From Planctomycetaceae bacterium (GTDB lineage Bacteria > Planctomycetota > Planctomycetia > Planctomycetales > Planctomycetaceae): 64,000 bases of DNA. Numbering within the stretch: position 1 is the first letter of the stretch; each line of letters starts with the position of its first letter. The notes beneath the pieces are model-generated. The model was not told where the DNA came from and made no database searches. It worked only from the letters and a program-made list of their open reading frames with translations. Made by a program: the position numbers and the translations under genes. Shown here one piece after another: positions 12,447 to 37,975 of the stretch. Where the stretch lies: NCBI GenBank assembly GCA_014762625.1, contig JABURQ010000012.1:1-64000 (forward strand), given 5' to 3'.

Positions 12447-12484
12447 AACGTGTTCTCTTGAGTTCAGAATCCTGTGAATGGTGA

Positions 12485-18467: not shown

Positions 18468-18488
18468 ATGGACGTGGAGGGACTCGAA
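18468..18488. repeat. Left attachment core of the island (attL), tRNA-Val 3' fragment
   Basis: These 21 bases (starting ATGGACGTGG, ending ACTCGAA) are identical to 37934-37954, which covers the T-arm and acceptor 3' strand of tRNA-Val. The rest of the tRNA is absent here. This is the duplicated 3' end expected when a tyrosine-integrase element inserts into a tRNA gene. Confidence 0.85.
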
Positions 18489-18794
18489 TACCCCCCACAA
18501 ACTTCGGGAGAAACGCAAATTCTCAGCGAGGGCAACGCAGAATCCAACGCAACCGAATCGCAACCTGCCTTTCTGGTAGATGATTCGATCGCTCTGCTAC
18601 AGGCCTCTCATCGCGACGCGGACTTTCCACAGAACACAGATTCCCGGCTGCGGGACATCATCGAACGCTGGGGGACTCTCTCTGAGGCTGTTAGGGATCG
18701 TTTGCATCATTTGGCACATGAGTCGTCAGAGACCGCAGAGACGACACCTCCAAACCGTGTGGCAGCTCTGAAGTCGACAGAGGTATCTGATTGA
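18468..18794 (+). CDS. Detached integrase C-terminal tail (108 residues) starting in attL
   Basis: The frame opens with MDVEGLE encoded by the attachment core, the same seven residues in the same frame as the integrase end at 37934. It goes on for about 100 residues and ends with a helical part (DSRLRDIIERWGTLSEAVRDRL) that resembles, from memory, the C-terminal tails of planctomycete integrases (pattern WPTLPEAVR). In an excised circle this segment would be joined in frame to the integrase. In the integrated state it has no obvious ribosome site and may be silent. It could also be a chance frame, but the phase agreement across attP argues against that. Confidence 0.55.
   Translation: MDVEGLEYPPQTSGETQILSEGNAESNATESQPAFLVDDSIALLQASHRDADFPQNTDSRLRDIIERWGTLSEAVRDRLHHLAHESSETAETTPPNRVAALKSTEVSD
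18513..18560. repeat. Candidate integrase arm-binding repeats, left side
   Basis: Just inside attL are copies of an AACGCA-type repeat: AAACGCAAATTC, CAACGCAGAATC and CAACGCAACCGAATC. The segment 18531-18551 matches 37813-37833 near the other end with one mismatch (GGCAACGCAGAAT then C/G then CAACGCA). Paired direct repeats close to both cores are typical of tyrosine-integrase arm sites. Confidence 0.5.
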
Positions 18795-18859
18795 ACCCTT
18801 TTGGCGAGCATGGCTCAGTTCGATCCAGAGCTAAATGATGAGTGCGTACATCCAGCTGG

Positions 18860-19579
18860 CTATTCAGAACTCTTCCGCAGAAAATTGCAGTTGGTGAATC
18901 CGGAGCGACCAGAATATTCTCCGTCTAGGATCCGGATTTCGCATGTAGAGATCGATGTGTCTATGACCCGAATCTTGGTTCCTGAATCGACCAGTATGAT
19001 CTCAGGCGAAAGATAAAGCATCTCTTTCTGCCCCTCTCGGTCGCCAGCGACAGACAATTTCATTAACCGATCAAAAGCATCTTTGGAGATACCCACAGGG
19101 ATCCGTTCCTGGCCTTCCAGATACAGAATTCCGGTATCGCCGATGATCAGAAAATCAAAATCCGACGAAGATGAAGCGGTCTCGACTGAGCCGGCTGATT
19201 GTTCTTGCGAGACATCAGGCCTTAAAAATTCTTCATTCGTGTCGACACAATCGGTTCCTGCAGTTGAGTAACCTGAAAGATTCAGCAGCACGATCACCGA
19301 GATACCCAAAAACAGTCCACCGAATAGCAGGGAGAGGCCAATGACAGATTCGTTCGCTGGTCCTTTTGAGAGGCGGAAGGAGCTGGTGCTTGATTTCGCA
19401 GAGACGGATCGCTCCGGATAATACTTCGCGAGCCCGCTCGTGTCTCGTTCGCTTTCTTTTCCCGATGTCTCCTGGCAGGATTTGCAGATATCCGGATCGG
19501 GCGAGTTCACCGGAATTTCGATAACATTTGAGCATCCGGGACATCGCCACGGTCGACTATCAAATTTCGCTGGATGCAT
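18860..19579 (-). CDS. Zinc-ribbon membrane protein of unknown function
   Basis: The 239-residue protein starts with a zinc ribbon (RPWRCPGCSNVIEIP ... PDICKSCQE), followed by a Ser-rich linker, one membrane helix at about residues 78-101 (ESVIGLSLLFGGLFLGISVI), and an external domain of about 120 residues whose last part (ILVDSGTKIRVIDTSISTC, VRILDGEYSG-like end) looks like a small SH3-type beta barrel. It is the first complete gene inside the island, on the strand opposite to the rest of the cargo. I know no function. Zinc-ribbon plus membrane helix proteins are frequent in planctomycetes. Confidence 0.65.
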   Translation of the reverse strand: MHPAKFDSRPWRCPGCSNVIEIPVNSPDPDICKSCQETSGKESERDTSGLAKYYPERSVSAKSSTSSFRLSKGPANESVIGLSLLFGGLFLGISVIVLLNLSGYSTAGTDCVDTNEEFLRPDVSQEQSAGSVETASSSSDFDFLIIGDTGILYLEGQERIPVGISKDAFDRLMKLSVAGDREGQKEMLYLSPEIILVDSGTKIRVIDTSISTCEIRILDGEYSGRSGFTNCNFLRKSSE

Positions 19580-20017
19580 CTTCCGTCCCCGCTTTCAATG
19601 GAAAAGGGCGTCGAACCAAGCTCGCCAGTCCAACCCCCGCCAAGGGGCGTCCAGAACGAAACCTGACCGACGCCCCCTTTCGGGGACGCGGCTACAGGTT
19701 TCTGCTCTGAACGATTTCGAGCCGGGTGGCTCAGTTTGGCGGTATTTGGACTTGGCAGAATCCTGACGCTAACGCGTCAACGAATTGTCAGATCAGCTCA
19801 TGCTGATCATGGTTCGATCTCAACTATTCATTCACTTCTCGCAATAAGACACAAATCAACCAGTGAACTTTACATCCTAATCGAATCAGACCGGGATCGT
19901 CAGGTCTTCTTCCGAGCAATTCAGCGATCTTGGATCCCCGAGGTCATTCATTCAAATATGAACTCTGAGTTGAACTGTCCAGGGATGAAATCTTCCGTTG
20001 TGGGGTCTCATAGAGAA
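19580..20017. other. 438-bp gene-free stretch with hairpins
   Basis: No convincing gene. Two structured parts can be seen: GACGCCCCCTTTCGGGGACGCGGC near 19668-19692 with the related GGGCGTC segments before it (pieces read separately), and a perfect six-base hairpin TGACGC-TAAC-GCGTCA at 19764-19779. The latter may be a terminator or operator. It also must hold the promoter of the minus-strand gene at 19579. Confidence 0.35.
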
Positions 20018-21178
20018 TCAGCTCTCATCATCAGTTTCCTCGAAAATAAGCTTCAATCGATCGTCATCAGCTTCATTGATCAGGTGTTTCTCAATTTCAA
20101 GCGACTGTGATGCAGTTGATCCGATTAACCCGTTTCGCACAAATTTCTGAAACTGGTGATTGTTGAGATGTGGCTGATCAGAAACACTCATGCCAGTCCT
20201 GAATTGCACCAATCCACACCAAATGCACAGTGGGTAATAAACACCAACAGGTATATCGTGGGAATCAGGAATTTCTCGTTTACAGAGCTTGATGAATATC
20301 GGACAACGACAGAGCCGAAAGTCAGATATCGCAGATTCTGAATAATTGAAACAATCCAACGATCCGGGAATTGCATGCATACGCGTGACTTCTTCGTCGT
20401 GACTATCATCGCCCGAAACGTAATATTTTCCTCCAGCCTTCTGACATTTGTATTGCACGAAAACAAGTCTTTTTTCATCCAAGAAATTGTAGATTAGATC
20501 GACTCCCAGAAATCGTTCGATTTTCGTGCGGTCTACTTTGTGCAAATAGACTCGTCGCCCCGCATGTGAAAAAAAATGCCTTCCATCTGGCAAAGTTCCA
20601 AGCTTCTCCATGTCGCTAAACAGCGTGCCAATATCAAAATCAAGAATCTGATGTTCTCGAAGTGGATCAAGAATCGGCACATGTCCGAATATCCGGAAAC
20701 CCGCTTGCATTGCATCATTAAAAGCAACTGCGATTTCAGAAGACTGGATCGGGTCTACAAAATCGAAATAAGATTCGTCCAGGGTGTCTTGGTTGCTCCG
20801 AAGGATTGCGTTTTTGACGGTTTCGCATTTTTCTCCCGGAACTGTGAAAAGGTCTCTAAACAACATCATCTCTGCAGCTTGATCTCTTCCTGATTCCCAG
20901 AGATCTTTTTCAGGGTAGATTGTATTCAGCAGTCCGTGAGCGGAAATTCGAATGGTTCTCACATCGAAAACATGAATTTTCATCCCGATATCGGCGGGTC
21001 GTGTCACTTTGCGAATCTTGCAAAGTAAAGCTTCCCCATCAGTGTCACGTAAAAGCCAGATGAGAAAACCGGGATATTCGAGTGACCGATACCCATCGAC
21101 CACAAAGCTGAATGAATCGGCGGGGAGAGTTTCGCGATCCTCCTTGAAAGTTCCGTAAATATAAAAAGGGTACTCCAA
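20018..21178 (-). CDS. Unrecognised 386-residue protein in the defence island
   Basis: The protein has no signal peptide or membrane segment. The middle reads as a conserved core: KIERFLGVDLIYNF, RLVFVQYKCQKAGGKYYV, LCRCPIFIKLCKRE, VGVYYPLCIWCG and HLNNHQFQKFVRNGLIGS. The Cys clusters (CRC, C, CIWC) could bind zinc, and the VDLIYNF ... FVQYK spacing recalls nuclease-like cores (acidic residue, then QxK), though I cannot assign a family. The gene stands alone, AT-richer than the flanking chromosome, upstream of and divergent from the restriction operon. A defence or regulatory role is a guess from context. Confidence 0.65.
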   Translation of the reverse strand: MEYPFYIYGTFKEDRETLPADSFSFVVDGYRSLEYPGFLIWLLRDTDGEALLCKIRKVTRPADIGMKIHVFDVRTIRISAHGLLNTIYPEKDLWESGRDQAAEMMLFRDLFTVPGEKCETVKNAILRSNQDTLDESYFDFVDPIQSSEIAVAFNDAMQAGFRIFGHVPILDPLREHQILDFDIGTLFSDMEKLGTLPDGRHFFSHAGRRVYLHKVDRTKIERFLGVDLIYNFLDEKRLVFVQYKCQKAGGKYYVSGDDSHDEEVTRMHAIPGSLDCFNYSESAISDFRLCRCPIFIKLCKREIPDSHDIPVGVYYPLCIWCGLVQFRTGMSVSDQPHLNNHQFQKFVRNGLIGSTASQSLEIEKHLINEADDDRLKLIFEETDDES

Positions 21179-21544
21179 ATCTATCTCCCTTTATTCTTTT
21201 AACTCTTCTGCTGTCGCCGTGAAGTCATCGAGAGCAGTCTAGAGGTCGTCAGCACTCTTATAAGCGTAAATTTCCGGCTTGGAATCAAGCAAATTGTGAA
21301 AAGCTTATCCCGAACACAATCCCCCCTTTCCCCCCGAGCCTGTTTTCGGAAGTTCTCTTGAAACCCTTTATTTGCAGGGGGAATCTTAATCAATTGTTTT
21401 TGCGTGTGAAGTGAGATTCTGTTTGAGCCACTTCAGCGACGTAAATCATTGGATCCTCATGTGTTGCGATGTTATAGGTAGAGCCTGTTCAGTGAAAACC
21501 TGACATCCCGTGAACTTACAACAATCACCTTGAACTGACATCCG
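21179..21544. other. 366-bp divergent intergenic region before the restriction operon
   Basis: It holds no supported gene. It should contain the promoters of the unknown protein (leftward) and of the res-dinD-mod operon (rightward). I see no strong ribosome site before the res ATG at 21545, and no clear operator. Confidence 0.35.
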
Positions 21545-24500
21545 ATGACGGAAGATTTCTTCAAACATCCGATTCTGAACTCTCCCTACGAGTACCCCGC
21601 TCGCCACTGGGAACTAGACGAGAACGGCCAACCGACGATGCAGATCATCGATCGACGTCGGTCGGCTGAGTTCATTTCACCAATCCCAAAGCCCCGCAAA
21701 CGGAAAAAGAAAAAGTCGGACAAGGTTCAACAGGAGTTCACGCTCGAATCAGGAGACAATCAACTCTCGACAGGAAAACAACGATACGATCCGAACTCCA
21801 CGATCAATGCGGTCCGGAAAGCGGTCGACGAGTGGCGTCAGATTCCCAACCCGTCGGATTGGCGAGTCACTCCAGAAACCGCTCGCTTGCTCCAATACTG
21901 GCGTAATCATGACTTCCAGGGCATCCGTCCCTTCTTTTGTCAGATCGAAGCGGTCGAAACCGCGATCTGGCTCACTGAAGTCGCACCGAGGCTGGGAAAA
22001 GCCGGTCAGAAGTTTCTCGAAGACCTGGAGAACGCCAACCTCGAAGCCAACCCGGAACTGAGCCGGCTCGCCTTGAAGATGGCCACGGGCTCCGGGAAGA
22101 CCACTGTGATGGCCATGCTGATCGCCTGGCAGACAGTCAATGCCGTCCGTCGCCCCACGAGCAAACGATTCACCAGAGGCTTCCTGATCGTCGCTCCGGG
22201 CCTCACGATCCGCGATCGGCTCCGTGTCCTGTTACCGAACGATCCTGACAGCTATTACAAAACTCGCGAGATCGTCCCCAGTGACATGCTGGGAGACATC
22301 GAGCGGGCGAAGATCGTCATCACGAATTATCACGCTTTCAAACTGCGAGAACGCATCGACCTCTCTCGAGGTGGACGAGCTCTGCTGCAGGGACGTCACG
22401 ATGACGAACTCAATACGCTCGAAACTGAAGGCCAGATGCTTCAGCGAGTGATGCCGGATTTGATGGGGATGAAAAACATCCTCGTCCTGAATGACGAGGC
22501 TCATCACTGCTATCGCGAGAAACCCGAAGATGAAGACGAGGAAGGAAAACTCAAAGGCGACGCAAGAAAAGAGGCTCAGAAAAACCTCGAGGCTGCCCGT
22601 CTGTGGATTTCCGGTCTCGAGGCCACCAATCGTAAGCTCGGACTGTCCCGAGTTATCGACCTCTCCGCGACACCATTCTTTCTGAGCGGCTCAGGCTACG
22701 CTGAGGGCACTCTGTTTCCCTGGACGATGTCTGATTTCTCTCTGATGGACGCGATTGAGTGCGGCATTGTGAAGCTCCCACGCGTCCCTGTGGCCGACAA
22801 CATTCCCGGTGAAGAGATGCCGACGTTCCGAAACCTCTGGGAGCACATCGGCAAGAAGATGCCCAAGAAAGGCCGCGGGAAATCGAAGACACTCGATCCG
22901 CTCAAACTCCCGGTGGAGCTGCAGACTGCTCTCGATGCCCTCTACGGTCATTACGAAAAAACCTTCGATCTCTGGCAGGAGGAAGGCATTTCCGTTCCTC
23001 CCTGCTTTATCGTCGTCTGCAACAATACGTCCACCTCGAAACTCGTCTATGACTATATCTCCGGCTTTGAGCGGGAGAATGATGACGGATCAATCACGCT
23101 TGAAAACGGACGTCTGAAACTATTCAGAAACTTCGATGAAAACGGCAATCAGCTGGCTCGCCCGAATACGCTACTCATCGACAGCGAGCAACTCGAATCT
23201 GGTGATGCTCTCGACAAAAAATTCCGCGACATGGCAGGTCCAGAAATCGAACGTTTCCGGAATGAGATCATCGAGAGGACCGGCGATCGCAAACAGGCAG
23301 AAAATATCAGTGACCAGGATCTGCTCCGCGAGGTCATGAACACGGTCGGCAAAGAGGGGCGGCTCGGTGAGCAAATACGCTGCGTGGTTTCCGTCTCGAT
23401 GCTTACGGAAGGTTGGGACACAAACACGGTCACGCATGTGCTCGGCGTGCGAGCATTCGGAACGCAGCTGCTCTGCGAGCAAGTCATCGGACGGGCTCTG
23501 CGTCGGCAGTCTTACGATCTGAACGAACACAACAAATTCAACACCGAGTATGCCGATGTCCTGGGGATTCCGTTCGACTTCACCGCCAAACCAGTCCCGT
23601 CACCTCCCCAGAAACCGCGTCAGACGATCCACGTCAAAGCCGTCCGTCCCGAGCGGGATCATCTGGAAATCCGCTTTCCCCGGGTCGAAGGTTATCGCGT
23701 CGAGCTGCCGGAAGAAAAAATCAATGCGGAGTTCAATGACGATTCAACCTTCACGCTCACCCCCGATGTCGTCGGTCCGTCGATCACCAAAAATGCCGGC
23801 ATCATTGGCGAAGATGCAAATCTCAGCCTGGAGCACCTCGATGAAGTCCGACGTTCGACATTGGAATATCACCTCGCCAAACGTCTGGTCATGCTGAAAT
23901 GGCGTGATCCGGGAGAAGATCCCAAGCTGCACCTCTTCGGACAGCTCAAGAGGATCACGAAACGCTGGCTGGATGAATGCCTCGAATGCAAAGGCGGCAC
24001 GTTTCCGGCTCAGCTGATGTATCAGGAGCTGGCCGACATCGCCTGCGACAAAATCACCACTGGGATCACGCGACATTTCAGTGATGAGAATCCGGTCAAG
24101 CCGGTACTCGATCCTTTCAATCCCGTCGGTTCCTCGAATTTCGTCAGTTTCAACACATCCAAAGAAGATCGATGGCAGACTAATCCTGAGAAATGTCAGA
24201 TCAACTGGGTGATTCTCGACAGCGACTGGGAAGCGGAATTCTGTCGAGTTGCCGAGGATCATCCCCAAGTCATTTCTTACGTCAAAAATCACAGCCTCGG
24301 ATTCGAAGTCCCTTATCGGATGGGCTCTGAAACCCACGCCTATCGTCCCGACTTCATCGTGAGAATCGATGACGGGCATGGAGAGGATGATCTGCTGAAT
24401 CTTGTCGTCGAAATCAAAGGTTTCCGTGGTGAGGATGCCAAGATCAAAAAAGAGACGATGGAGACTCAGTGGATTCCTGGCATCAATCATCTGGGGAAAT

Positions 24501-24652
24501 ATGGACGCTGGTGTTTTGCAGAGTTCACCGATGTGTTCGAGATGGAGGATGACTTTAAACAGAAAGTCGAGCAGAAATTCAATGAGATGATTGATCGACT
24601 TGAATTTGATCAAAAATCATTTGTGGGAACAATCACAGGAAAGACTGTATGA
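21545..24652 (+). CDS. Type III-like restriction endonuclease subunit (DEAD/DEAH helicase plus PD-(D/E)XK nuclease)
   Basis: The 1035-residue protein begins NSPYEYPARHWELDENGQP, which I recall from the BPTD_3080-type restriction family. Helicase motifs follow: Walker A ATGSGKTT (K185), DEAH-type NDEAHH (D317-H320), SATPFF, and a late motif VIGRALRRQSY for arginine-finger function. The C-terminus has a PD-(D/E)XK nuclease: a Glu in DWEAEFC, YRPDFIV, then VVEIKGFRG. It should translocate and cut DNA lacking the partner methylation. It overlaps dinD by four bases (ATGA), and mod follows that gene directly. Confidence 0.88.
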   Translation: MTEDFFKHPILNSPYEYPARHWELDENGQPTMQIIDRRRSAEFISPIPKPRKRKKKKSDKVQQEFTLESGDNQLSTGKQRYDPNSTINAVRKAVDEWRQIPNPSDWRVTPETARLLQYWRNHDFQGIRPFFCQIEAVETAIWLTEVAPRLGKAGQKFLEDLENANLEANPELSRLALKMATGSGKTTVMAMLIAWQTVNAVRRPTSKRFTRGFLIVAPGLTIRDRLRVLLPNDPDSYYKTREIVPSDMLGDIERAKIVITNYHAFKLRERIDLSRGGRALLQGRHDDELNTLETEGQMLQRVMPDLMGMKNILVLNDEAHHCYREKPEDEDEEGKLKGDARKEAQKNLEAARLWISGLEATNRKLGLSRVIDLSATPFFLSGSGYAEGTLFPWTMSDFSLMDAIECGIVKLPRVPVADNIPGEEMPTFRNLWEHIGKKMPKKGRGKSKTLDPLKLPVELQTALDALYGHYEKTFDLWQEEGISVPPCFIVVCNNTSTSKLVYDYISGFERENDDGSITLENGRLKLFRNFDENGNQLARPNTLLIDSEQLESGDALDKKFRDMAGPEIERFRNEIIERTGDRKQAENISDQDLLREVMNTVGKEGRLGEQIRCVVSVSMLTEGWDTNTVTHVLGVRAFGTQLLCEQVIGRALRRQSYDLNEHNKFNTEYADVLGIPFDFTAKPVPSPPQKPRQTIHVKAVRPERDHLEIRFPRVEGYRVELPEEKINAEFNDDSTFTLTPDVVGPSITKNAGIIGEDANLSLEHLDEVRRSTLEYHLAKRLVMLKWRDPGEDPKLHLFGQLKRITKRWLDECLECKGGTFPAQLMYQELADIACDKITTGITRHFSDENPVKPVLDPFNPVGSSNFVSFNTSKEDRWQTNPEKCQINWVILDSDWEAEFCRVAEDHPQVISYVKNHSLGFEVPYRMGSETHAYRPDFIVRIDDGHGEDDLLNLVVEIKGFRGEDAKIKKETMETQWIPGINHLGKYGRWCFAEFTDVFEMEDDFKQKVEQKFNEMIDRLEFDQKSFVGTITGKTV

Positions 24653-25506
24653 AAACTGAAATCATTCAAACATTGACCTCTTCTTTCGAGGCCCATGCTC
24701 AACTAACTGAGGAAAGTATTGAATACTGGTTAGCAAGAGATGTTCAACATTTGCTCGGTTACTCGGAATGGAGGAATTTTTCCACGGTCATCACGAAGGC
24801 AAAAACAGCTTGTGAAGTATCGGGAAATGCAGTCTTAGACCATTTTGTTGACGTCACCAAAATGGTTGATCTAGGTTCAGGAAGTCAAAGAGAAATCGAT
24901 GACATTATGCTGACCAGATATGCCTGCTACCTGATTGCTCAAAACGGAGACCCTAAGAAAGAGGAAATTGCTTTCGCTCAAACGTATTTCGCTTTACAGA
25001 CTCGAAAAGCTGAGCTGATTGAGAAAAGGCTGCTTGATACAGAAAGAGTTTCTGCGAGGAAAAAACTGACGGAAACGGAAAAGGAACTTTCTTCCGTAAT
25101 CTATCAACAGACAGGAAGTGATCGAAATTTTGGCATTATTCGTAGCAAAGGAGACCAGGCTCTCTTCGGGAAAACGACAAAAGGCATGAAGTCGCAATGG
25201 AAGGTTCCAGCTAATCGCCCCCTCGCAGATTTTGCTCCCACCATCATTCTGAAAGCCAAAGATTTTGCGACAGAGATCACAATCCACAATGCAAAGGAGA
25301 ACGAGCTTTCGACAGAGAAAGCAATTTCCGATGAGCACATCACAAACAACAAAGCCGTTCGTAAAACACTTCTCGAACGAGGAATTCGCCCAGAAAGTCT
25401 ACCTCCAGCGGAAGATGTGAAGAAAGTCGAACGTCGATTGGTTTCTGAAGAAAAGAAGTCCCATAAAAATCCTGAATCGTTAACGTCGGAAGGAAACGAC
25501 GAATAG
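24649..25506 (+). CDS. dinD: DNA-damage-inducible protein D (DinD)-like, BRO-N domain
   Basis: The 285-residue protein starts with a BRO-N-type domain: YWLARDVQHLLGYSEWRNFSTVI, AKTACEVSG and DIMLTRYACYLIAQNGDP. It goes on with FAQTYFALQTRKAELIEKR, SDRNFGIIRSKGDQALFG and KAVRKTLLERGIRPESLPP, all features of DinD. E. coli DinD inhibits RecA-dependent strand exchange; here it is translated between res and mod (4-base overlap before it; its stop is followed directly by the mod ATG). The base composition is more AT-rich than res and the ends of mod, which suggests separate acquisition. A role in damage response after restriction is inferred. Confidence 0.88.
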   Translation: MKTEIIQTLTSSFEAHAQLTEESIEYWLARDVQHLLGYSEWRNFSTVITKAKTACEVSGNAVLDHFVDVTKMVDLGSGSQREIDDIMLTRYACYLIAQNGDPKKEEIAFAQTYFALQTRKAELIEKRLLDTERVSARKKLTETEKELSSVIYQQTGSDRNFGIIRSKGDQALFGKTTKGMKSQWKVPANRPLADFAPTIILKAKDFATEITIHNAKENELSTEKAISDEHITNNKAVRKTLLERGIRPESLPPAEDVKKVERRLVSEEKKSHKNPESLTSEGNDE

Positions 25507-28311
25507 ATGGCCAAGAAAAAGAAGAAAACTTCCAAAAGTGTCGAGACGATCACCCACGAAGATGCATCGCGGAAAAACATCCCCACCGCTGAACTTCAGT
25601 CGGTCGTCGGTGATGACGATCGCAATCCGATCAAGGTTGCCTACGAACGCCGGAATCGCGATCTCGATCCACAACTCGTCTGGCGTGGGAAAGACGAGCA
25701 GGACTGGTCTGATCTCGTCGTCAATGCTCCTCCGCTCTACATTCAGGAAAAGGTCCATCCAAAAGTCCTGATCGACGATCTGATGCGGAAAACCGAGAAC
25801 CTGGAAAAAGAGCAGCCTGGAACGCAGCTCGATCTCTTCGCGGATTTCAATGGCCTCCCCGACAACGCCCGCTCGACCGATTTTTATGAGCACGAGGGGC
25901 ACTGGTCGAATCGCATGATCCTCGGGGACAGCTTGCAGGTCATGGCGTCGCTGGCCGAACGAGAGGGGCTGAGAGGTCAGGTCCAATGCATCTATATCGA
26001 TCCACCTTACGGCATCAAATTCAATTCCAACTTCCAATGGTCGACGACCAGCAACAAGGTTGCTGATGGAAAAGCGGACCACATTACTCGCGAGCCCGAG
26101 CAGGTCAAAGCATTTCGCGATACCTGGCGGGACGGAACACATTCATATCTCACGTATCTTCGCGACAGACTAACGGTCGCACATGATCTGCTTAATGAGA
26201 CTGGTTCATTATTCGTACAAATCGGCGACGAGAATGTCCATTTGGTACGTTCCCTGCTCGACGAAGTTTTCGGAGACACGAACTTTCTCAGCTTAATCAT
26301 GTTCGAGAAAACAAGTAGTGCCTCATCGGGACGTCTCTCATCTGTAGCTGACTACATCCTTTGGTATGCCAAAAACACAGATTCAGTAAAGTATCGGCAA
26401 CCATTCAAGCAGAAAGAGTTGGGAGAAGCTGGAACGACCCAGTATATCTGGTTTGATTCATATGAGCAGGGTGAACGAAGGATGACAGCAGAGGACAAGT
26501 TGTCCATTGGTAAACGTTCTGAATGGCGAGTTTTTGCTTGCGATAATTTGACGAGTCAGAGACCTGCCCAAGGTGGTGATGTCAAAGAGTTCGACTACGC
26601 AGGAAAACAATTTCAACCCGGGAAGGGAACCTTCAAAACAGACCAAAATGGGCTAGATCAACTAGCAAGAGCAGGACGCTTAAAACCGATCGGCAACACT
26701 TTGATGTATAAGCGGTTTCTCGATGATTTCTCTGTGATACCGATCGCAAATATCTGGTCAGACGTAAAAATGACAGGGTTCTCTGAAGCAAAAACTTACA
26801 TCGTTCAAACTGGCCAGAAAGTGATTCAACGGTGTCTCTTGATGGCTACCGATCCGGGTGATTTGGTTCTAGACCCAACCTGTGGCTCCGGAACTACCGC
26901 TTACGTAGCAGAGCAATGGGGACGCCGCTGGATCACGATCGATACCTCTAGAGTTGCTCTCGCTCTGGCTCGTGCAAGAATCATGGGAGCCCGGTATCCC
27001 TACTATCTTCTCTCGGATAGCAGTGCGGGAAAACAGAAAGAAGCAGAGATCACGCGTACCGATCCGAGTGACTCTCCGAGCGGCAGTAACATCCGGCATG
27101 GTTTTGTCTACCAGCGTGTCCCTCACATCATGCTCAGCTCGATCGCGAACAACACTGAGATCGGTGTAATCTGGGAACAATTTCAGGAAAAGCTCGGGCC
27201 ATTGCGTGAGAAATTGAACCAAGCCTTGAATCAGAAATGGGAGGAATGGGAGATTCCCAGAGAAGCCGGCGATGACTGGTCGAAAGATGTGAAAACACTG
27301 CACGCCGAATGGTGGGAGCAGCGAATCGCTCGACAGAAAGAAATCGATGCCAGCATCGCCGCCAAGGCCGACTTCGAATATCTCTACGACAAACCTTACG
27401 AAGACAAATCCAAGGTCCGTGTGGCTGGCCCCTTCACCGTAGAAAGCATCTCACCACATCGCGTGCTGGGAGTCGATGAAAACGACGAACTGATCGATCC
27501 GATCGAAGTCGCCGACAAAGAGACCGAAGGCAGCCAGGACTTCGCCTCGATGATTCTGGACAACCTGAAGACCGCAGGTGTCCAGCAGGCTCACAAGGAA
27601 GACAAAATCAACTTTTCCTCGCTGGCCCCGTGGCCCGGCGAATACATTTGTGCCGAGGGACGCTACCTCGAAGGTGATGACGAGGAGGGTGACGAGAAGC
27701 GAGCCGGCATTTTCATCGGTCCTGAGTTCGGAACCGTCACACGCCAGAATCTCGTCGCGGCAGCTCGTGAGTGCGGCGATGCCGGCTTCGACGTCCTCAT
27801 CGCCTGTGCCTTCAGCTACGACGCTCACTCAGCCGATTTTGACAAGCTGGGAGCTCTCCCGGTGCTCAAGGCTCGCATGAACGCTGATCTCCATATGGCG
27901 GAAGATCTCAAAAATACCGGTTCCGGAAATCTCTTTGTCATCTTCGGAGAGCCGGACATCGACATTCTCGATGCCGACGATGATCAGATTCAGGTGAAGA
28001 TCAACGGCGTCGATGTCTTCCATCCGAACACCGGTGAAGTCCGCAGCGACAGTGCCGACGGCATCGCCTGCTGGTTCATCGACACCGATTACAACGAAGA
28101 AAGTTTCTTCGTCCGCCAGGCATACTTCCTCGGAGCTAACGATCCTTACAAATCACTCAAGCGATCGCTCAAAGCGGAGATCAATGAGGAAGCCTGGGAA
28201 ACGCTCCACAGCGACACATCGCGTCCGTTCCCGAAACCCGACGGAGGCCGCATCGCGGTGAAAGTGATCAATCACCTGGGCGATGAAGTGATGAAAGTGT
28301 TTCGGGTGTAA
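25507..28311 (+). CDS. Type III-like site-specific DNA methyltransferase (beta-class, adenine)
   Basis: The 934-residue protein has the catalytic motif DPPY (residues 165-168, in YIDPPYGIKF) ahead of the AdoMet-binding motif DPTCGSGTT (from residue 456), the order of beta-class N6-adenine/N4-cytosine methylases such as Type III Mod. The recognition region lies between these motifs. After the methylase comes a long C-terminal part (residues about 560-934), including SLAPWPGEYICAEGRYLEG and GPEFGTVTRQNLVAAARE, of unknown role. It starts right after the dinD stop. It should protect host DNA from the restriction subunit. The segment at about 26190-27000 looks AT-richer than both ends. Confidence 0.9.
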   Translation: MAKKKKKTSKSVETITHEDASRKNIPTAELQSVVGDDDRNPIKVAYERRNRDLDPQLVWRGKDEQDWSDLVVNAPPLYIQEKVHPKVLIDDLMRKTENLEKEQPGTQLDLFADFNGLPDNARSTDFYEHEGHWSNRMILGDSLQVMASLAEREGLRGQVQCIYIDPPYGIKFNSNFQWSTTSNKVADGKADHITREPEQVKAFRDTWRDGTHSYLTYLRDRLTVAHDLLNETGSLFVQIGDENVHLVRSLLDEVFGDTNFLSLIMFEKTSSASSGRLSSVADYILWYAKNTDSVKYRQPFKQKELGEAGTTQYIWFDSYEQGERRMTAEDKLSIGKRSEWRVFACDNLTSQRPAQGGDVKEFDYAGKQFQPGKGTFKTDQNGLDQLARAGRLKPIGNTLMYKRFLDDFSVIPIANIWSDVKMTGFSEAKTYIVQTGQKVIQRCLLMATDPGDLVLDPTCGSGTTAYVAEQWGRRWITIDTSRVALALARARIMGARYPYYLLSDSSAGKQKEAEITRTDPSDSPSGSNIRHGFVYQRVPHIMLSSIANNTEIGVIWEQFQEKLGPLREKLNQALNQKWEEWEIPREAGDDWSKDVKTLHAEWWEQRIARQKEIDASIAAKADFEYLYDKPYEDKSKVRVAGPFTVESISPHRVLGVDENDELIDPIEVADKETEGSQDFASMILDNLKTAGVQQAHKEDKINFSSLAPWPGEYICAEGRYLEGDDEEGDEKRAGIFIGPEFGTVTRQNLVAAARECGDAGFDVLIACAFSYDAHSADFDKLGALPVLKARMNADLHMAEDLKNTGSGNLFVIFGEPDIDILDADDDQIQVKINGVDVFHPNTGEVRSDSADGIACWFIDTDYNEESFFVRQAYFLGANDPYKSLKRSLKAEINEEAWETLHSDTSRPFPKPDGGRIAVKVINHLGDEVMKVFRV

Positions 28312-28321
28312 GTCTTGCGTT

Positions 28322-28353
28322 CAGTCTTGTGGGCTCTTTCAATCACAAGACTG
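28322..28353. terminator. Perfect 10-bp hairpin after mod
   Basis: CAGTCTTGTG (28322-28331) and CACAAGACTG (28344-28353) are perfect inverted repeats with a 12-base loop, 10 bases past the mod stop and 28 bases before the ATPase start. There is no good T run, so it could be a weak terminator, an RNA-stability element or an operator for the next two genes. Confidence 0.45.
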
Positions 28354-28381
28354 TTCTGAGCTACTCAATGACAGGTGAGAG

Positions 28382-29974
28382 ATGACGACCGAACCCGATG
28401 ATATGACATTTCGAGTAATAAGTCAGGACACCAGAATCTCTTCGAAGATCAAGGGATGGTCAGCATACTTGCATCGGGACTTTTGGGATGACTGGGGAAA
28501 ATATTGCACTCAGTTTTATTTAACAATCGTAGATCCTGATGGCGAACATCACGACATTGGCAATGTGAAAATCGGAGAGGCTGGTCTCAAACCCGGTCGC
28601 GGTAAGAATCTTCCAGCTCAGACCCGCAAACCCGATATACCCGCGAGTTTTGACCAATTGGACGAGGAGTTTTTTTCGGTTGGACAGGATGAAGACTACT
28701 ACGCAAAGCTTGGTCGCCTCGGGGACAGTATCCGAGTAAGAGTTTTGACAAGCCTCAATGATGTCGCATGGGACGCAGAAGCTTGGGAGATAGCCAAAGA
28801 CGAAGATGTCATGTGGGAGTCTCTGATGCGATCTCTGACGGAATTAACCGTTAAGGGACAATTTCAGAGAATGGCTCGCGGTGATGCCAGAGTAACAAAG
28901 TATGACTTTACCTATACACCTCCGAAGAGGCTGTTCGAAGAAGAGCCACCCTTCAGCCTGACATTCAGTGTTGACCCGGACTCGCCAATCCCCACCAATA
29001 TCCATGTTTTGATCGGTCGGAACGGAGTAGGAAAGACATTCCTACTTTCGCTAATGATAAAAGCACTAATCGCAAAAGACGCGGTTGCTCACCAATCCGG
29101 TAAGTTCGAATTCAAAGAAACCAAGCGTCGAGAAACATTCGCAAATGTGGTTACTGTTTCGTTCAGTGCTTTTGATGATTCTGAACTATTTCCTAACCGC
29201 CCGCCATCAAAGAATTCCCTTGGCTTTGCTCACATAGGGCTGCGAGAGTCTAAAGCCAGGTCAAACAAAAAGCTCGTGAGGACCAAGTCGCCGTCCAGCC
29301 TTGCCAGAGAATTCATTCAGAGCCTGAAGATCTGCCAGAAAGGAGCCCGCAGAGAGAGATGGATCAATTCAATATGTTCTCTGCAATCCGATCCAGTATT
29401 CAAATCCGCTCAGTTAACTGATTTGATCGACGCGGATCTGTCTGATCCGGAAAATGACGAAGAACGGGAAAAAGCCTTACGCACATTCAAAGAGCTCAGT
29501 TCGGGGCATAAAATCGTCCTCCTAACATTGACGAGACTTGTTGAAAAAGTCGAAGAACGAACTCTGGTATTGATTGATGAACCGGAAGCTCACCTTCATC
29601 CTCCTCTTTTGTCTGCGATGACGCGAGCTCTCTCTGATCTACTCGTCCAGAGAAATGGGGTGGCGATTGTGGCAACGCACTCTCCAATCATTCTACAAGA
29701 GGTTCCGAAGTCCTGCGTCTGGATACTAAACCGTCTTTACCAAGTCTCAAGTATTGAAAGACCCTCGATTGAGACATTTGCGGAAAGCATCGGTGTTTTG
29801 ACTCGTGAAGTATTTCAGTTGGAACTCTCACAATCCGGGTATCACCAGATCCTCCGTGAACTGAGGCAAGAGGAGCCCAGCTACGAAGATGCTGTGGAAG
29901 AGTTGGACAATCAACTCGGAGCTGAAGGCAAAGCTGTATTGCGAGGTTTGTTTTTGAACGACCACGATGAATAG
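28382..29974 (+). CDS. AAA/ABC-type ATPase of a Septu-like (PtuA-like) defence pair
   Basis: The 530-residue protein has a unique N-terminal region of about 200 residues, then Walker A GRNGVGKT (212-219), a long insertion, a signature-like LSSGHKIVLLTLTRL, Walker B LVLIDEPEAHLHP (D399, E400) and the switch motif ATHSP. This is the SMC/OLD-like ATPase of predicted defence systems. The next gene, nine bases later, is an HNH nuclease, the combination known from Septu (PtuA/PtuB). The N-terminal region is larger than I recall for PtuA and may be a sensor. Retron- or OLD-type partners are alternatives. Confidence 0.8.
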   Translation: MTTEPDDMTFRVISQDTRISSKIKGWSAYLHRDFWDDWGKYCTQFYLTIVDPDGEHHDIGNVKIGEAGLKPGRGKNLPAQTRKPDIPASFDQLDEEFFSVGQDEDYYAKLGRLGDSIRVRVLTSLNDVAWDAEAWEIAKDEDVMWESLMRSLTELTVKGQFQRMARGDARVTKYDFTYTPPKRLFEEEPPFSLTFSVDPDSPIPTNIHVLIGRNGVGKTFLLSLMIKALIAKDAVAHQSGKFEFKETKRRETFANVVTVSFSAFDDSELFPNRPPSKNSLGFAHIGLRESKARSNKKLVRTKSPSSLAREFIQSLKICQKGARRERWINSICSLQSDPVFKSAQLTDLIDADLSDPENDEEREKALRTFKELSSGHKIVLLTLTRLVEKVEERTLVLIDEPEAHLHPPLLSAMTRALSDLLVQRNGVAIVATHSPIILQEVPKSCVWILNRLYQVSSIERPSIETFAESIGVLTREVFQLELSQSGYHQILRELRQEEPSYEDAVEELDNQLGAEGKAVLRGLFLNDHDE

Positions 29975-29982
29975 AACTGCTC

Positions 29983-30840
29983 ATGAGAAACTTGCCGCTA
30001 CCACAAGATGAATCGTCCCAACTCTTCAAAGCGAGAGATGTGTACGAAACGTGTATATCGAACGCGAGGGCTCCATTACGAACTCGCTTGCGAAGGATTC
30101 GGAACACTGTTGAAAACGAAGCAAAAGATTATGACGACAAAGCTAAAAAACAACGCCTATTTCGTAAGCCTCCGCATGACCGAGTTCGTGGAGTGACAAA
30201 AGACGAGTTGATGAAAGTTTACACAGACCGAATGGTTAAAAAGAAATCGCCGGGACGCTCCATCTACGAAAGAATCCTGCTGGCCCCGAAGCATCGCATT
30301 TGCCCATTCTGTGGCATAGGGACGGCCAACACGCTCGATCATTATTTGCCTAAATCTGAGTATCCAGTGTATGCAGTCAATCCTTCAAATCTTGTACCCT
30401 GTTGCGAATGGTGCCAAGGTGAGAAAAAAGAGTACTATCCTCGCTCAAAAGGAAAACAGCTACTTCACCCTTATTTTGACGACGTAGAAAACGAGCTCTG
30501 GCTTACTGCGGAAGTCGTCGAAGGTGTTCCCGCCTCATTCAGATATTTTGCCTCACCACCTGATACTTGGGCAACCTTTCAGAAACGACGTTTGGATGCT
30601 CATCTAAAAGAACTCAACCTGAATGAGCTTTTTTCTATAAATGCTGGGAGTAGGCTTTCCGAGATCAGGTCCAGGCTTATCAAACTTCACCAAAAAGGAG
30701 GTGAAATCGCGGTTCGAGAGCATTTGTCAGAAGAACTTGAAAGCATGGAAGCAGATCATTTGAATTCTTGGACATCTGCGATGTATCGAGCAGCGATTGA
30801 GAGCGACTGGTTTTGCGAAGGTGGATTTCGCGATACCTGA
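29983..30840 (+). CDS. HNH endonuclease, PtuB-like partner of the ATPase
   Basis: The 285-residue protein has CPFCG (C107, C110), then TLDHYLPKSEYPVYAV (D119, H120) and NLVPCCEWCQGEKKEY, i.e. an HNH fold with two zinc-binding Cys pairs. The DHYLPKS.YP and NLVP.C motifs match Septu-type nucleases from memory. The N-terminal 100 residues are basic and helical. It starts nine bases after the ATPase stop and they are surely cotranscribed. It probably cuts DNA or tRNA-like substrates when the ATPase is triggered. Confidence 0.82.
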   Translation: MRNLPLPQDESSQLFKARDVYETCISNARAPLRTRLRRIRNTVENEAKDYDDKAKKQRLFRKPPHDRVRGVTKDELMKVYTDRMVKKKSPGRSIYERILLAPKHRICPFCGIGTANTLDHYLPKSEYPVYAVNPSNLVPCCEWCQGEKKEYYPRSKGKQLLHPYFDDVENELWLTAEVVEGVPASFRYFASPPDTWATFQKRRLDAHLKELNLNELFSINAGSRLSEIRSRLIKLHQKGGEIAVREHLSEELESMEADHLNSWTSAMYRAAIESDWFCEGGFRDT

Positions 30841-30918
30841 AACAATTCCATAAAGCGAGCCTTGAGTTAGTAGCGATTTGAATCGAAGCTTTCTCACTCG
30901 ATATAGACTGAAAGCAGT

Positions 30919-31434
30919 ATGCCAAAACAAAAACATTTCCGACTTCCGGTGGTCTCCGCGGGAGCAGAGTATCTCGTGATGGGATACCTGATGAGGAGAA
31001 ATATTCTCACGTACCAAGCCCCACCGCGAAACGAGGGCTATGACCTGATCTGCATCCATCCGGACCCTCGACACCTCCCGCAAAAAGACGAATCAGCACA
31101 GGTCCGTGTTCAAGTTAAGAGCCGGTATGCCACTGACTGCGGTCGTGGTTTTCCGGTTAAAGAAGCCAGCCTGGATGCTTTCGACTTTCTTGTTGTCGCC
31201 TTCCTGAACATCGGAAAATTTTTCAACAAAAATGACGGCTCCTCAGGCATGAGAGAACCGGAGTTTTATACTCTCCCCACGGAATTCGTTCGGGAGCATC
31301 ATGACACAAGCTCATCTTGGCAAAAGGTTCGGCTCGGTTCGGTTCAAGATGAAATCGAACAGTTCAAAAACGAAGCCGGCTTCGACTTGATCGCTGAAGA
31401 GTTGGGGATCCCGAAACCTCGAAAAGTACGATAG
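30919..31434 (+). CDS. Small PD-(D/E)XK-like (DUF4365-like) putative nuclease
   Basis: The 171-residue protein has a nuclease-type core: Glu in GAEYLVMGYLMRRNI, Asp in NEGYDLICIHP and QVKSR after a short insertion (motifs of a restriction-like fold with QxK). The rest is helical with no known domain. It starts 79 bases after the HNH gene. It may be a standalone effector or an additional component; DUF4365 proteins have a similar E-D-QxK layout, but the assignment is by pattern only. Confidence 0.6.
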   Translation: MPKQKHFRLPVVSAGAEYLVMGYLMRRNILTYQAPPRNEGYDLICIHPDPRHLPQKDESAQVRVQVKSRYATDCGRGFPVKEASLDAFDFLVVAFLNIGKFFNKNDGSSGMREPEFYTLPTEFVREHHDTSSSWQKVRLGSVQDEIEQFKNEAGFDLIAEELGIPKPRKVR

Positions 31435-31474
31435 TAGATCTGAAAATCTCAGACGGACACTGAAGGTCTCGACA

Positions 31475-32341
31475 ATGAGTATCAGTAGTTTTTACGAAAA
31501 CCAGCTCGGAGCAAAACTGGCCAATTCACGCTGGTCGTGGGGAGCGGTCGACAAAGTCACGGACCGAATCTTCCTGCGAGTCTGGAAAAGTGAAATTGAA
31601 CATCCCCCTGCGGGTGAGCGTGTGCTCTTGCGGAAGGGAGATTGGGAGACGAACTCGAACGGATATGATGAACGCACCAAGCATATTCAGAAAATCAGAA
31701 ATGGCTCCCAAGGCTACGGCGTCGTTTGTGAGAGAAAGAAATCACAGTCAAAAGATGGTTCCAAAATCGCAAACTTCAACCAGGAGACTCTACTGAAATT
31801 TGGAGACATCATCGATGACGGAAGTGACGTCTTCGCAGAGGTTATCGATCGAGTCTCGGTGAAAGATTTGGCACGCCAGCAATCCGGTCACAGCACTCTC
31901 GCTGACGACCTCAAAAGCCTCCTGAGAGCGAGTAAGAAAAAGTTCGATGAAACGACCAAGGAATCGATGGTCGACGCCAGGATCGGCCAGGGAGCCTTCA
32001 GAGCATCCGTGCTGCAGATGTGGGACCATGCTTGTGCAGTCACCGGATGTCGCGTCACGGACGCGATACGAGCGTCTCACATCAAGCCCTGGAAAGACTC
32101 TGACAATTCAGAGCGACTGGACCCGATGAATGGACTCCCGCTGATCGCCACGCTCGATGCTCTATTTGATGCCGGCTTGATTTCATTTGAAGACTCGGGC
32201 GAGATGATTATCTCTGAGAAAATTTCCCCAAACGAGCGAACACTGCTGCGGCTCGATGGGCTGAAACTTCGGCATGATCCCCCTGAAGAGATGACCGAAT
32301 ACCTCGCGTTTCATCGCCGTCGATTCTTCGGCTACTCATAA
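31475..32341 (+). CDS. HNH endonuclease (HNH_2/McrA-like restriction nuclease)
   Basis: The 288-residue protein ends in a classical HNH domain: ARIGQGAFRASVLQMWDHAC, AVTGCRVTDAIRASHIKPWK, SERLDPMNGLPL and LDALFDAGLISFEDSGEM. These strings are the well-known HNH pattern of McrA-type restriction enzymes. The N-terminal half (from RWSWGAVDKVTDRIFLRVWK) resembles recognition domains that read DNA modification, but I cannot name it. It would cut modified or foreign DNA. It lies 40 bases after the small nuclease gene. Confidence 0.85.
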   Translation: MSISSFYENQLGAKLANSRWSWGAVDKVTDRIFLRVWKSEIEHPPAGERVLLRKGDWETNSNGYDERTKHIQKIRNGSQGYGVVCERKKSQSKDGSKIANFNQETLLKFGDIIDDGSDVFAEVIDRVSVKDLARQQSGHSTLADDLKSLLRASKKKFDETTKESMVDARIGQGAFRASVLQMWDHACAVTGCRVTDAIRASHIKPWKDSDNSERLDPMNGLPLIATLDALFDAGLISFEDSGEMIISEKISPNERTLLRLDGLKLRHDPPEEMTEYLAFHRRRFFGYS

Positions 32342-32414
32342 AGGGATACTTAGCAAATTCGAAGATTAGATTTGTGACAGGATCGACAACTATTGAACCT
32401 TGGAAAGTGAGTGA

Positions 32415-33059: not shown

Positions 33060-33244
33060 ACAAAGGATGTGGCTTTAGAGTCTTTGAAGACTGATTCTTT
33101 GATTGAGGGTGACGTCTTGCGTTCGCGTGGCGTGCAGTTGGCGGCATTAGTCTGATAGAATTACGGACACGTGGGATAGGCTGATCCCCGAACACCGGCA
33201 TCACCACCGGCTTCCCGCGTTTCTCTTTCTGGTGAATCGCGAAG

Positions 33245-33964: not shown

Positions 33965-34033
33965 CTGTCCGGTATCTGTCGGCACCTTCAGTGCATACTC
34001 GCTCCGCAAGCTGAGTTATGAATTGGAGGTTTC

Positions 34034-34406: not shown

Positions 34407-34457
34407 TAACCAAAAAAAAGCCAGCAGCGTGGCAGATAATCCGGGCAGGAAGCTGAT

Positions 34458-36170: not shown

Positions 36171-36202
36171 GGATTCATTGAAACATCACCTGACGGGAAG
36201 CA

Positions 36203-36292: not shown

Positions 36293-36346
36293 CCGAGGGC
36301 GGTATTTGATCGAACAAACCACCGATTCATCACTGAAAGCTATCTC

Positions 36347-36526: not shown

Positions 36527-36643
36527 TGATCCATTGTGTTCCAAATTGCGGTAGTGTCGCAATCAACGCTACCGGTTTGTCGGACCAACTAACTCGAAAG
36601 CAATCATTTCGACAACTGGCTCTTCTAAGAAAGGAAACTTTTT

Positions 36644-37975
36644 ATGGCGTCTGTCTCCACTGCCAATAACGGCACGCGACGCATCCAGTTCACCGATCCC
36701 AACGGCAAACGTCGCACGCTCTATCTCGGCAAGATTCCGAAGCGAAACGCCGATCAGGTCCGGTTTCGAGTCGAACAACTCCTGGCCGCAAGAATCTCCA
36801 GTTCCCCAGCCACACCGGATTGTGCCGACTGGTTGAATGGCATCGATGATGTGCTTCACGAGAAGCTCGCGAACGTCGGGTTGATCGATCCTCGAGAGCC
36901 GGAGGAAGTCGTGAGGCTGGGGGAGTGGCTTGATTCGCATGTGGAGGGAAGGAACGATCTCAAGGGCTCCTCGAAAACCGTCCACGGTCACACGGTACGG
37001 AATCTGAAAGCATACTTCGGAGCGGATCGAGACGTGCGGGATATTAGCCATGCCGATGCCGATGACTTCCTGCAGTGGTTGATCGGTACGAAATTCGGAA
37101 AGCGAGAGAAACGCTTATCCTCGACCACGGTCCACAAGCGGATTCAGATTTCTCGATCATTCTTCCGCACGATGATGCGGCACAAACTCATTAACGAGAA
37201 TCCATTTGACGGAGTGAAAGCTCCAGCTGCCGTCGTCAAGAATCGCGAACGCTTCGTGACTCGAGAAGAGATCGCGGATGTGCTTGAGAAGTGTCCCAGT
37301 ATTGATTGGAGGTTGATCGTCTCACTGGCAAGATTTGGAGGTCTCCGCTGCCCATCTGAAGTTCTCTCTCTCCGGTGGGAAGATATCGACTGGTACGAGA
37401 AACGAATTATCGTTACGAGTCCAAAGACTGAGCATCACCCCGACGGTGCAACTCGAAAAATCCCGCTCTTTCCAGAACTGCGAGAAGTGCTGAGCGAGGC
37501 CCACGAGCTGGCAAAGCCCGGAGCGGTCTATGTGGTTGACGAGCGTTTTAGACAGGCAGCTCAAGGCCCAAATGGATGGCAGAATGCGAATCTCCGGACC
37601 ACATTTAAGAAGATCGTCAAGCGAGCTGGGCTGACTCCTTGGCCGAAACTCTTTCATAATCTGCGGGCATCTCAGGAAACCGAGCTGATACAATCGCATC
37701 CGATTCAAACGGTGACAGCCTGGCTGGGAAACTCTCCCAAGACCGCCCTCAAGCACTATCTCCAGGTGCGAGAAGCTGACTTCGAGAAAGCGGTTCTAGG
37801 AAGCGACTCTCAGGCAACGCAGAATGCAACGCACAAAATGACGAAACAACGTGAAACAACGCAAAATGTGAATCATCCAAAACGACAAAACCCCGAAAAA
37901 CATAGTGTTTCCCGGGGTTCGCGTGATGTACGGATGGACGTGGAGGGACTCGAACCCCCAACTTCTTCCTTGTAA
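36644..37975 (+). CDS. Tyrosine integrase whose C-terminus runs through the attachment core
   Basis: The 443-residue protein has an N-terminal arm-binding-type region, a SAM-like core-binding domain (LGEWLDSHVEG ... SHADADDFLQWL) and a catalytic domain with Arg235 (GGLRCPSEVLSLRW), His338-x-x-Arg341 (HNLRAS) and Tyr372 (LKHYLQV). It ends MDVEGLEPPTSSL, which is read from the tRNA-Val sequence antisense to that gene; the stop TAA lies in the anticodon-arm part. The core therefore lies inside the coding frame (codon 431 on). It catalyses insertion and excision at tRNA-Val. A GGAAAC-type weak ribosome site precedes the start. Confidence 0.92.
   Translation: MASVSTANNGTRRIQFTDPNGKRRTLYLGKIPKRNADQVRFRVEQLLAARISSSPATPDCADWLNGIDDVLHEKLANVGLIDPREPEEVVRLGEWLDSHVEGRNDLKGSSKTVHGHTVRNLKAYFGADRDVRDISHADADDFLQWLIGTKFGKREKRLSSTTVHKRIQISRSFFRTMMRHKLINENPFDGVKAPAAVVKNRERFVTREEIADVLEKCPSIDWRLIVSLARFGGLRCPSEVLSLRWEDIDWYEKRIIVTSPKTEHHPDGATRKIPLFPELREVLSEAHELAKPGAVYVVDERFRQAAQGPNGWQNANLRTTFKKIVKRAGLTPWPKLFHNLRASQETELIQSHPIQTVTAWLGNSPKTALKHYLQVREADFEKAVLGSDSQATQNATHKMTKQRETTQNVNHPKRQNPEKHSVSRGSRDVRMDVEGLEPPTSSL
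37813..37876. repeat. Candidate integrase arm-binding repeats, right side
   Basis: Inside the end of the integrase frame are several direct copies of an AACGCA-type unit: CAACGCAGAATG, CAACGCACAAAATG, CAACGTGAAAC and CAACGCAAAATGTG. They lie about 60-120 bases from the attachment core. The first two match the left side (18531-18551). They are probable arm sites of the integrase. Confidence 0.5.
37887..37919 (-). terminator. Terminator of tRNA-Val supplied by the island
   Basis: On the minus strand, AACCCCG and CGGGGTT form a seven-base stem with a TTTTG tail after it, 16 bases beyond the tRNA 3' end. It lies in the integrase coding frame. Its presence lets the tRNA stay properly terminated after integration. 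Confidence 0.55.
37934..37954. repeat. Right attachment core (attR) in the tRNA-Val gene
   Basis: The 21 bases are identical to 18468-18488. They encode the 3' half of the T-arm and the acceptor 3' strand of tRNA-Val, so integration restores an intact tRNA. Confidence 0.85.

Follow-up and report, generated by a model that had tools for sequence, protein, structure and literature searches.

Accessory genes inside restriction operons are already known. Excerpts of two reports (PMC3710099, PMC12707154) describe PrrC in EcoprrI and HEPN, DOC and RhuM genes, which resemble the case treated here in that an accessory gene lies within a restriction operon. In Btr190I, according to an excerpt of PMC4996451, HsdS is fused to DinD, thereby tying DinD physically to restriction-modification (R-M), and in the N4-methylcytosine (m4C) type III systems presented in part of PMC8259958 a third gene, encoding a helicase-like ATPase 5' of mod, is consistently found by mod and res. 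The locus analyzed here is a res-dinD-mod operon from a Planctomycetaceae bacterium (assembly GCA_014762625.1, contig JABURQ010000012.1, positions 1 to 64,000 of the forward strand; this whole stretch of 64,000 nucleotides is referred to as the window). The res/mod junction of such BPTD_3080-type operons is an exchange slot, sometimes holding more than one accessory gene, and dinD is one of its entrants.

The families of the three open reading frames (ORFs; Table 1) confirm the placing of dinD between a nuclease gene and a methylase gene, as proposed in an earlier note made from the DNA letters. Res matches the BPTD_3080 restriction endonuclease family NF046055 at 1381 bits (cut-off 800); in Pfam, ResIII is matched and RE_endonuc reaches 22.7 bits, just below its cut-off of 23.4. 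In the Res translation, GSGKT is taken to be Walker A, followed by a presumed DEAH box and a C-terminal RPDF...EIK that we read as PD-ExK-like. Mod matches the PADLOC model PDLC03632 MTase_III at 1399 bits as well as PF01555, and its motif order, DPPY before DPTCGSGT, presumably marks the beta class. The pair thus has the features of a type III system, namely a Res with superfamily 2 (SF2) helicase motifs and a PD-ExK-like nuclease and a Mod of the beta class, and Res and Mod form an R-M pair with or without a slot gene. The window DinD falls in the NF008573 / PRK11525 family (382 bits over residues 1-278, cut-off 242) and scores 393 bits against PDC-S13, under which the DinD group is already listed in PADLOC as a defence candidate. 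The coupling of the three genes described in the same note is also correct: the res stop TGA shares ATGA with the dinD ATG (junction sequence GTATGAAAA), and the dinD stop TAG at 25504-25506 directly abuts the mod ATG at 25507. Gene calls throughout are naive longest ORFs, in which some overlaps are over-called starts.

Two genome samples were used to place this operon among its relatives, one of 294 genomes from the window's phylum and one of 349 genomes from a second phylum, around G296 (Rhodospirillaceae); the window and the seed genome G296 (locus L078) are excluded from the fractions of loci given below. When both sets were searched with NF046055, 38/294 and 25/349 genomes lay above the cut-off, and the Res loci fetched were 40 above the cut-off in the first set (window excluded) and, in the second, 24 above it (all but the seed) with one below. 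These 65 loci comprise 33 with res before mod on one strand (14 + 19), 23 with mod before res and nine without a recognised mod (L150, L158, L159, L160, L164, L208, L215, L221 and L222, some at a contig end), the latter two groups being left out of the 33; in L205, L218 and L220 the mod is incomplete. The junction of the 33 holds a same-strand gene of at least 100 amino acids (aa) in 26 loci, is empty in six (L141, L145, L148, L151, L198, L209) and is unclear in L154, where a 372-base gap contains an opposite-strand ORF only. DinD is the occupant of one filled junction (L203), the other 25 holding other genes. That dinD is built into restriction operons, as the earlier note had it, is supported by its recurrence (see below). 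DinD as a conserved part of BPTD_3080 operons is rejected, with dinD present in 1/33 sampled loci of this order and the junction of the nearest relative empty.

The occupants belong to many families. GmrSD_N/DUF262 genes are found in L144, L149 and L213, NYN genes in L200, L201, L202 and L218, and PIN genes in L205, L206 and L220, with a PIN match barely above cut-off in L152. Single loci hold DUF3800 (L142), a deaminase with HATPase_c_4 (L143), RhuM with SLFN_AlbA_2 (L146), an N6 methylase (L153), UPF0150 (L155), Bro-N (L199), a REase-ARP nuclease with further genes (L212), the defence candidate PDC-S11 (L216) and a weak match to PDC-S54 (L147). A Pfam scan gave no name for the slot genes of L204, L207, L210 and L214, and for these and L211 a PADLOC match is absent or very weak; the slot contents of L207 and L211 resemble each other and part of those of L214. 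On the mod-before-res branch the junction contents include KilA-N (L161), ORF6N (L174), GYF_2 (L169), GmrSD_N with HNH (L180) and others. DinD (Bro-N), Bro-N, RhuM, KilA-N and ORF6N proteins, which we take to be of the phage-regulator type, recur at the junction beside nucleases. NYN is kept in the slot by all four members of one Res clade (L200, L201, L202 and L218; support 100), indicating that some slot loads are inherited stably.

Exchange at this position is seen on trees of Res (FastTree, 57 proteins) and DinD (104 proteins). Placing the eight dinD loci on the Res tree takes eight changes, a number equal to that of their rows and no lower than with shuffled labels, and the starred branches force at least five of the eight. 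The nearest row to the window is L141, whose genome belongs to the same family and whose Res is 76% identical over 1017 columns, and its empty junction leaves 8 bases from the res stop to the mod ATG; L062 (with dinD, its res in two pieces) and L198 (with an empty junction) are sisters with support 100. The DinD tree requires 30 context changes among type I, type III, the BPTD_3080 family and none, compared to a shuffled mean of 36.0. When only the BPTD_3080-family context is scored, this tree needs seven changes, at least three of them forced; scoring restriction against none gives 27 changes, no fewer than 17 being forced where the label 'none' is concerned, leaving a single origin of restriction-linked DinD unsupported. 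The DinD most identical to that of the window (79%) is embedded in a type I operon (L226). This mixing of contexts looks like that of a cassette common to several restriction types.

A bacterial genome scan with an alignment of ten DinD proteins returned at least 578 relatives, of which the best 80 were kept. A search for the same gene order in other genomes, suggested in the earlier note, found res-dinD-mod in six of these best 80 (L062 Sedimenticola, L074 Lysobacterales, L078 Rhodospirillaceae, L079 Rhodocyclales, L084 Lambdaproteobacteria and L091 Rhodospirillales), and L203, which comes from the Res-selected sample and was not picked via DinD, is the seventh such locus besides the window. 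The identical order thus recurs in distant groups. The worry of a one-off insertion is answered in part: dinD recurs between res and mod at seven other loci, but it is not a conserved operon part. In the eight res-dinD-mod loci inspected, an ATGA marks the end of res in the window, L062, L074, L078, L079 (with ATG as the dinD start not established), L084 and L203, and is missing from L091, which shows a 36-base gap on the longest-ORF call; the mod start lies no more than 69 bases from the dinD end wherever the mod ORF start is not over-called. Other DinD loci among the best 80 are flanked on one or both sides by mod or res genes of classical type III (L096, L097, L098, L103, L104, L129) or belong to type I hsd operons, as in L072, L075 and L102, the HsdR, HsdS and HsdM labels being Pfam-checked for L102 only. 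Following DinD, L064 encodes a Cas3-like helicase with an HD domain (10893-13385) and L120 a large SIR2_2-domain protein (7050-10196), a possible further defence pairing.

As the best 80 were picked by likeness to the DinD alignment, the two samples drawn on other criteria were added. DinD above the cut-off is present in 9/294 genomes of the window's phylum (window included); of the other eight, three are in a type I setting (L183, L185, L186), one is by a broken BPTD_3080 res (L188) and four have no recognised restriction neighbour. In the second phylum it is present in 20/349 genomes, and 10/19 (seed excluded) are in restriction operons: six of type I (L225, L226, L227, L231, L233, L235), three in mod-dinD-res or dinD-mod-res order (L230, L234, L237) and one in res-dinD-mod order (L203). 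L224 is doubtful and was kept outside the restriction-linked count, and was counted as type I on the DinD tree through a 112-aa HsdM-like piece. Both samples together place 14/27 DinD genes in restriction operons that were recognised as type I or type III. All 32 of the 32 recognised R-M genes within three genes of DinD (31 fetched loci) are on DinD's strand; with a few restriction loci per genome, a restriction gene would be expected next to DinD by chance in roughly one percent of cases or fewer. These neighbours were called with profiles grown from few references, which overlooked some of them; an initial pass gave an HsdM match for L105 and L118, yet both are scored 'none' on the DinD tree. 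At L188 (genome G109) a BPTD_3080 res broken by an in-frame stop lies by a broken dinD, a decayed copy of the arrangement.

The E. coli dinD was considered as the remnant of a restriction operon and this was rejected, the arrangement there being a rare insertion only. E. coli STEC639 (L030), whose DinD is 37% identical to that of the window, has a mod and a split res upstream of dinD; this mod/res segment (at least 80% covered) is found in 2/5426 E. coli genomes, STEC309 (H76) being one listed. DinD DNA is found in 4668/5426 genomes, with at least 80% of the gene in 1526.

The base composition of dinD is unlike that of res, as had been noticed earlier: the guanine-plus-cytosine content (GC) and that of third codon positions (GC3) are 0.533/0.626 for res, 0.431/0.406 for dinD and 0.521/0.593 for mod, and dinD has the lowest GC among the 44 window ORFs of at least 150 aa (simple ORF caller). 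The drop in GC3 sets in some 35 codons or less before the end of res and does not extend past the start of mod. The low-GC3 block covering the res tail and dinD is probably an imported segment. The second such block, inside mod, contains the least conserved part of that protein, with identity to eight relatives falling to 0.25-0.35 over residues 301-400. It probably represents a swapped region of mod, which we infer to be the target-recognition region.

An AlphaFold2 model of the window DinD, built with 64 relatives, is of high confidence, with a mean predicted local distance difference test (pLDDT) score of 91.4 and a predicted TM-score (pTM) of 0.71. When compared to solved chains with Foldseek, all five matches at E ≤0.001 are DdrC of Deinococcus radiodurans (best E 1.2e-5, probability 1.00), and VIA-align gives Z 14.9 over 201 residues at 16% identity, spanning residues 8-245, with the best non-DdrC chain, a designed helical repeat, at Z 6.6. 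The model thereby shows a Bro-N domain with a helical fold as in DdrC. Scans of the window DinD with Pfam, PADLOC, NCBIfam and PHROGs recognised no catalytic or toxin domain. The named proteins among the first ten matches in a viral library are regulatory, antirepressor and KilA-N proteins and a Vibrio phage ORF, several of these matches covering only ~115-120 columns. DinD relatives are also present in the first 4.4 kb of 13 records of Streptococcus satellite phages, among the 40 matches listed (H42, H44-H51, H55, H57-H59).

DdrC binds single- and double-stranded DNA, shields it against nuclease attack, anneals strands and turns linear DNA into circles, as described in an excerpt of PMC5436757, and E. 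coli DinD is cited as a RecA inhibitor in an excerpt of PMC10602874. The predicted DdrC-like fold fits a protein acting on broken or single-stranded DNA. In the earlier note dinD was also suggested to act as a phage-induced signal; SOS control of the embedded genes, which bears on this idea, gains no support from a scan limited to four known SOS-box types, in which a box was found just upstream of 0/37 restriction-embedded dinD genes (a set to which the window and L203 do not belong). The window res and dinD, scanned separately, likewise lack any of the four types upstream; a box is present at 2/59 solitary dinD loci and at E. coli K-12 dinD.

The mechanism preferred here, at what we judge an even chance, is that DinD is an exchangeable slot accessory which binds DNA broken by restriction and hinders its RecA-dependent rescue. 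DinD would be made in step with Res through translational coupling, and would bind the DNA ends or single strands left by Res and by subsequent degradation. It may then hinder the RecA-dependent rescue of cut invading DNA, making the cuts final, and phages that blunt restriction would still face a second obstacle. The slot, its exchange, the gene overlap and the DdrC-like predicted fold are observed in the data, while the binding of ends, the hindrance of RecA and the gain against phage are inferred.

Several points weigh against this mechanism and the exchange behind it. Despite the many moves, the DinD tree shows some clustering of contexts, changes as few having been obtained in 0/200 shuffles, and thus not every occurrence is a separate entry. 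The alignment of DinD with DdrC has a root-mean-square deviation of 9.9 Å, probably because the two domains are flexibly joined, and a profile of 64 DinD sequences searched against solved structures at E ≤1 returned no DdrC chain, so the likeness is one of fold only. A recognised restriction neighbour is missing from 13/27 sampled DinD genes (one doubtful), and as this is about half of the sample, the function of DinD cannot depend on Res. For a pneumococcal dinD-bearing element, an excerpt of PMC10602874 reports four mutations, none of which matched the effect on transformation of another elimination; one of the four removed the dinD-like gene together with regulatory genes. These mutants thus give no sign that the gene by itself has a strong effect, or that RecA is strongly blocked in the cell. 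Furthermore, several other slot occupants are nuclease- or toxin-like, which a guard effector would fit at least as well.

Such a guard, although unlikely by our estimate, is the main rival, as the published frame is one of second-line toxicity (excerpts of PMC3710099 and PMC12707154) and several co-occupants of the slot are nuclease-like. DinD would, like PrrC, be silenced by the restriction complex and harm the cell's DNA metabolism if a phage inhibits restriction. Precedent comes from PrrC in EcoprrI and from what has been proposed in general for R-M operons that contain HEPN, DOC and RhuM genes, as given in the same excerpts; dinD is embedded in an R-M operon as PrrC-type guard genes are, and the same slot also holds PIN, NYN, GmrSD_N, RhuM and REase-ARP nuclease genes. 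The guard is opposed by the window DinD having no recognised catalytic domain and by the persistence of about half of the sampled DinD without recognised restriction neighbours, seemingly with no need of R-M for tolerance.

Ranked after the guard, and likewise unlikely, is a protector of the host: DinD would detect broken DNA of the host, or shield it, and keep self-restriction in check, by local restriction alleviation or by end protection. DinD's partners are ATP-dependent DNA breakers of types I and III, restriction enzymes of both types being ATP-dependent, and dinD overlaps res. DdrC, as a damage-response protein that protects DNA from nucleases (excerpt of PMC5436757), is in keeping with this role. 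A protector is harder to reconcile with the 6/33 loci, the nearest relative included, that have no slot gene at all, and the RecA inhibition cited for E. coli DinD would impede host repair, not aid it.

An improbable alternative is a structural third subunit: by docking on Mod (or HsdS), DinD would adjust DNA recognition or assembly. The HsdS-DinD fusion of Btr190I with working modification (excerpt of PMC4996451) is one strong hint, and positions 6-265 of a PADLOC type I specificity model (717 positions) match the window DinD; however, relatives of Res and Mod without dinD are otherwise intact, and unrelated families replace dinD in the same slot. Least probable, and very much so, is a passenger that rides restriction operons for mobility reasons with no service to them, for while dinD is scattered across both trees and the window operon lies inside an integrase-bounded island, the 32/32 neighbouring R-M genes on DinD's strand, the ATGA overlaps at several loci and the entry into type I, type III and BPTD_3080 systems are hard to explain without selection.

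The operon is carried within a 19.5-kb integrative island (18468-37954) bounded by a 21-base repeat of the 3' end of tRNA-Val (Table 1). The island also holds a DnaB-N/AAA_25 protein (34458-36170) and an HNH_2 protein. The PtuA/PtuB-like pair, on the same strand directly downstream of mod, is probably a separate Septu-like system.

Table 1. Features of the operon and the surrounding island, with positions in the window.
Feature	Position	Strand	Description and basis
attL-like repeat	18468..18488	.	direct repeat matching the 3' end of tRNA-Val exactly over 21 bases; within-window blastn, E 1.7e-6
res	21545..24652	+	1035 aa; BPTD_3080-family type III-like restriction helicase-nuclease; NF046055, ResIII
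low-GC3 block, res tail and entire dinD	24545..25506	+	0.34-0.44; GC3 profile
ATGA overlap	24649..24652	+	res stop / dinD start; read from sequence
dinD	24649..25506	+	285 aa; Bro-N domain and helical C-terminal part; exchangeable res/mod junction cargo
mod	25507..28311	+	934 aa; beta-class N6/N4 DNA methyltransferase; PF01555, PDLC03632
low-GC3 block inside mod	26107..27006	+	0.42-0.48; GC3 profile
PtuA-like ATPase	28382..29974	+	PDC-M01A / PtuA; PADLOC; 70 bases past mod
PtuB-like HNH nuclease	29983..30840	+	PDC-M01B; PADLOC
tyrosine recombinase (integrase)	36644..37975	+	island end at tRNA; PF00589
attR-like repeat	37934..37954	.	21-base repeat copy, at tRNA-Val end; blastn within the window
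tRNA-Val	37935-38008	-	

Downstream of mod, 24/42 loci compared carry a helicase family of ~690 aa (blastp grouping, some loci being cut by contig ends), at positions such as 1253-3352 in L203, 15526-17637 in L149 and 15422-17479 in L209, among others. The L203 member, the sole one scanned, has UvrD domains, with C3a187 (NERD+UvrD) and GajB as its best PADLOC models; with four members as queries, the window returned no copy of the family. A second variable gene position precedes the helicase, with an RVT_1 (reverse transcriptase) protein in L149 and an AAA_15 ATPase in L209. A wider and more tentative proposal, which we hold to be possible, is that BPTD_3080-type operons are a modular defence chassis. 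The chassis would have a fixed res-mod core, often with the downstream UvrD-type helicase, and exchange slots, at the res/mod junction and behind mod, that take up unrelated effectors in translational register. DinD would be a break-binding, DdrC-type load that blocks RecA and leaves cuts irreparable, and a load common to type I and classical type III systems.

In the open-licence papers searched, one gene-expression review names both DdrC and DinD, and no description was found of the res/mod slot of the BPTD_3080 family, of repeated DinD recruitment by type I and III systems beyond a single fusion, or of a DdrC-like fold of DinD, and no papers were found there on PDC-S13 or BPTD_3080. The findings turn a single odd operon into a testable rule, that one junction of a widespread restriction family takes different second-line genes. 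Natural pairs of empty and occupied junctions (L141 and the window; L198 and L062) make the effect of one load measurable in a near-identical chassis, and the slot position lets unknown genes be listed as candidate effectors. DinD itself gains a structural relative in DdrC and a setting among DNA-breaking enzymes.

In comparing the locus to the described systems, the embedded genes reported so far centre on recognisable toxins, with PrrC in a type I locus (excerpts of PMC3710099 and PMC12707154); here, a single defined junction in a BPTD_3080/type III-like res-mod pair provides the setting, and a DdrC-like fold is predicted for the occupant. Btr190I differs in being a fusion to a type I specificity subunit (excerpt of PMC4996451), whereas dinD stands as a gene of its own, overlapping its neighbour, and the operon is type III-like. 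The third gene of the m4C systems is one conserved family in the excerpt of PMC8259958, and the position studied here is common to many unrelated families. D. radiodurans DdrC is alike in fold, but is a radiation-response protein (excerpt of PMC5436757) and gives no profile match. E. coli K-12 DinD belongs to the same family by NF008573; however, it is solitary, has an SOS box and lies outside restriction operons.

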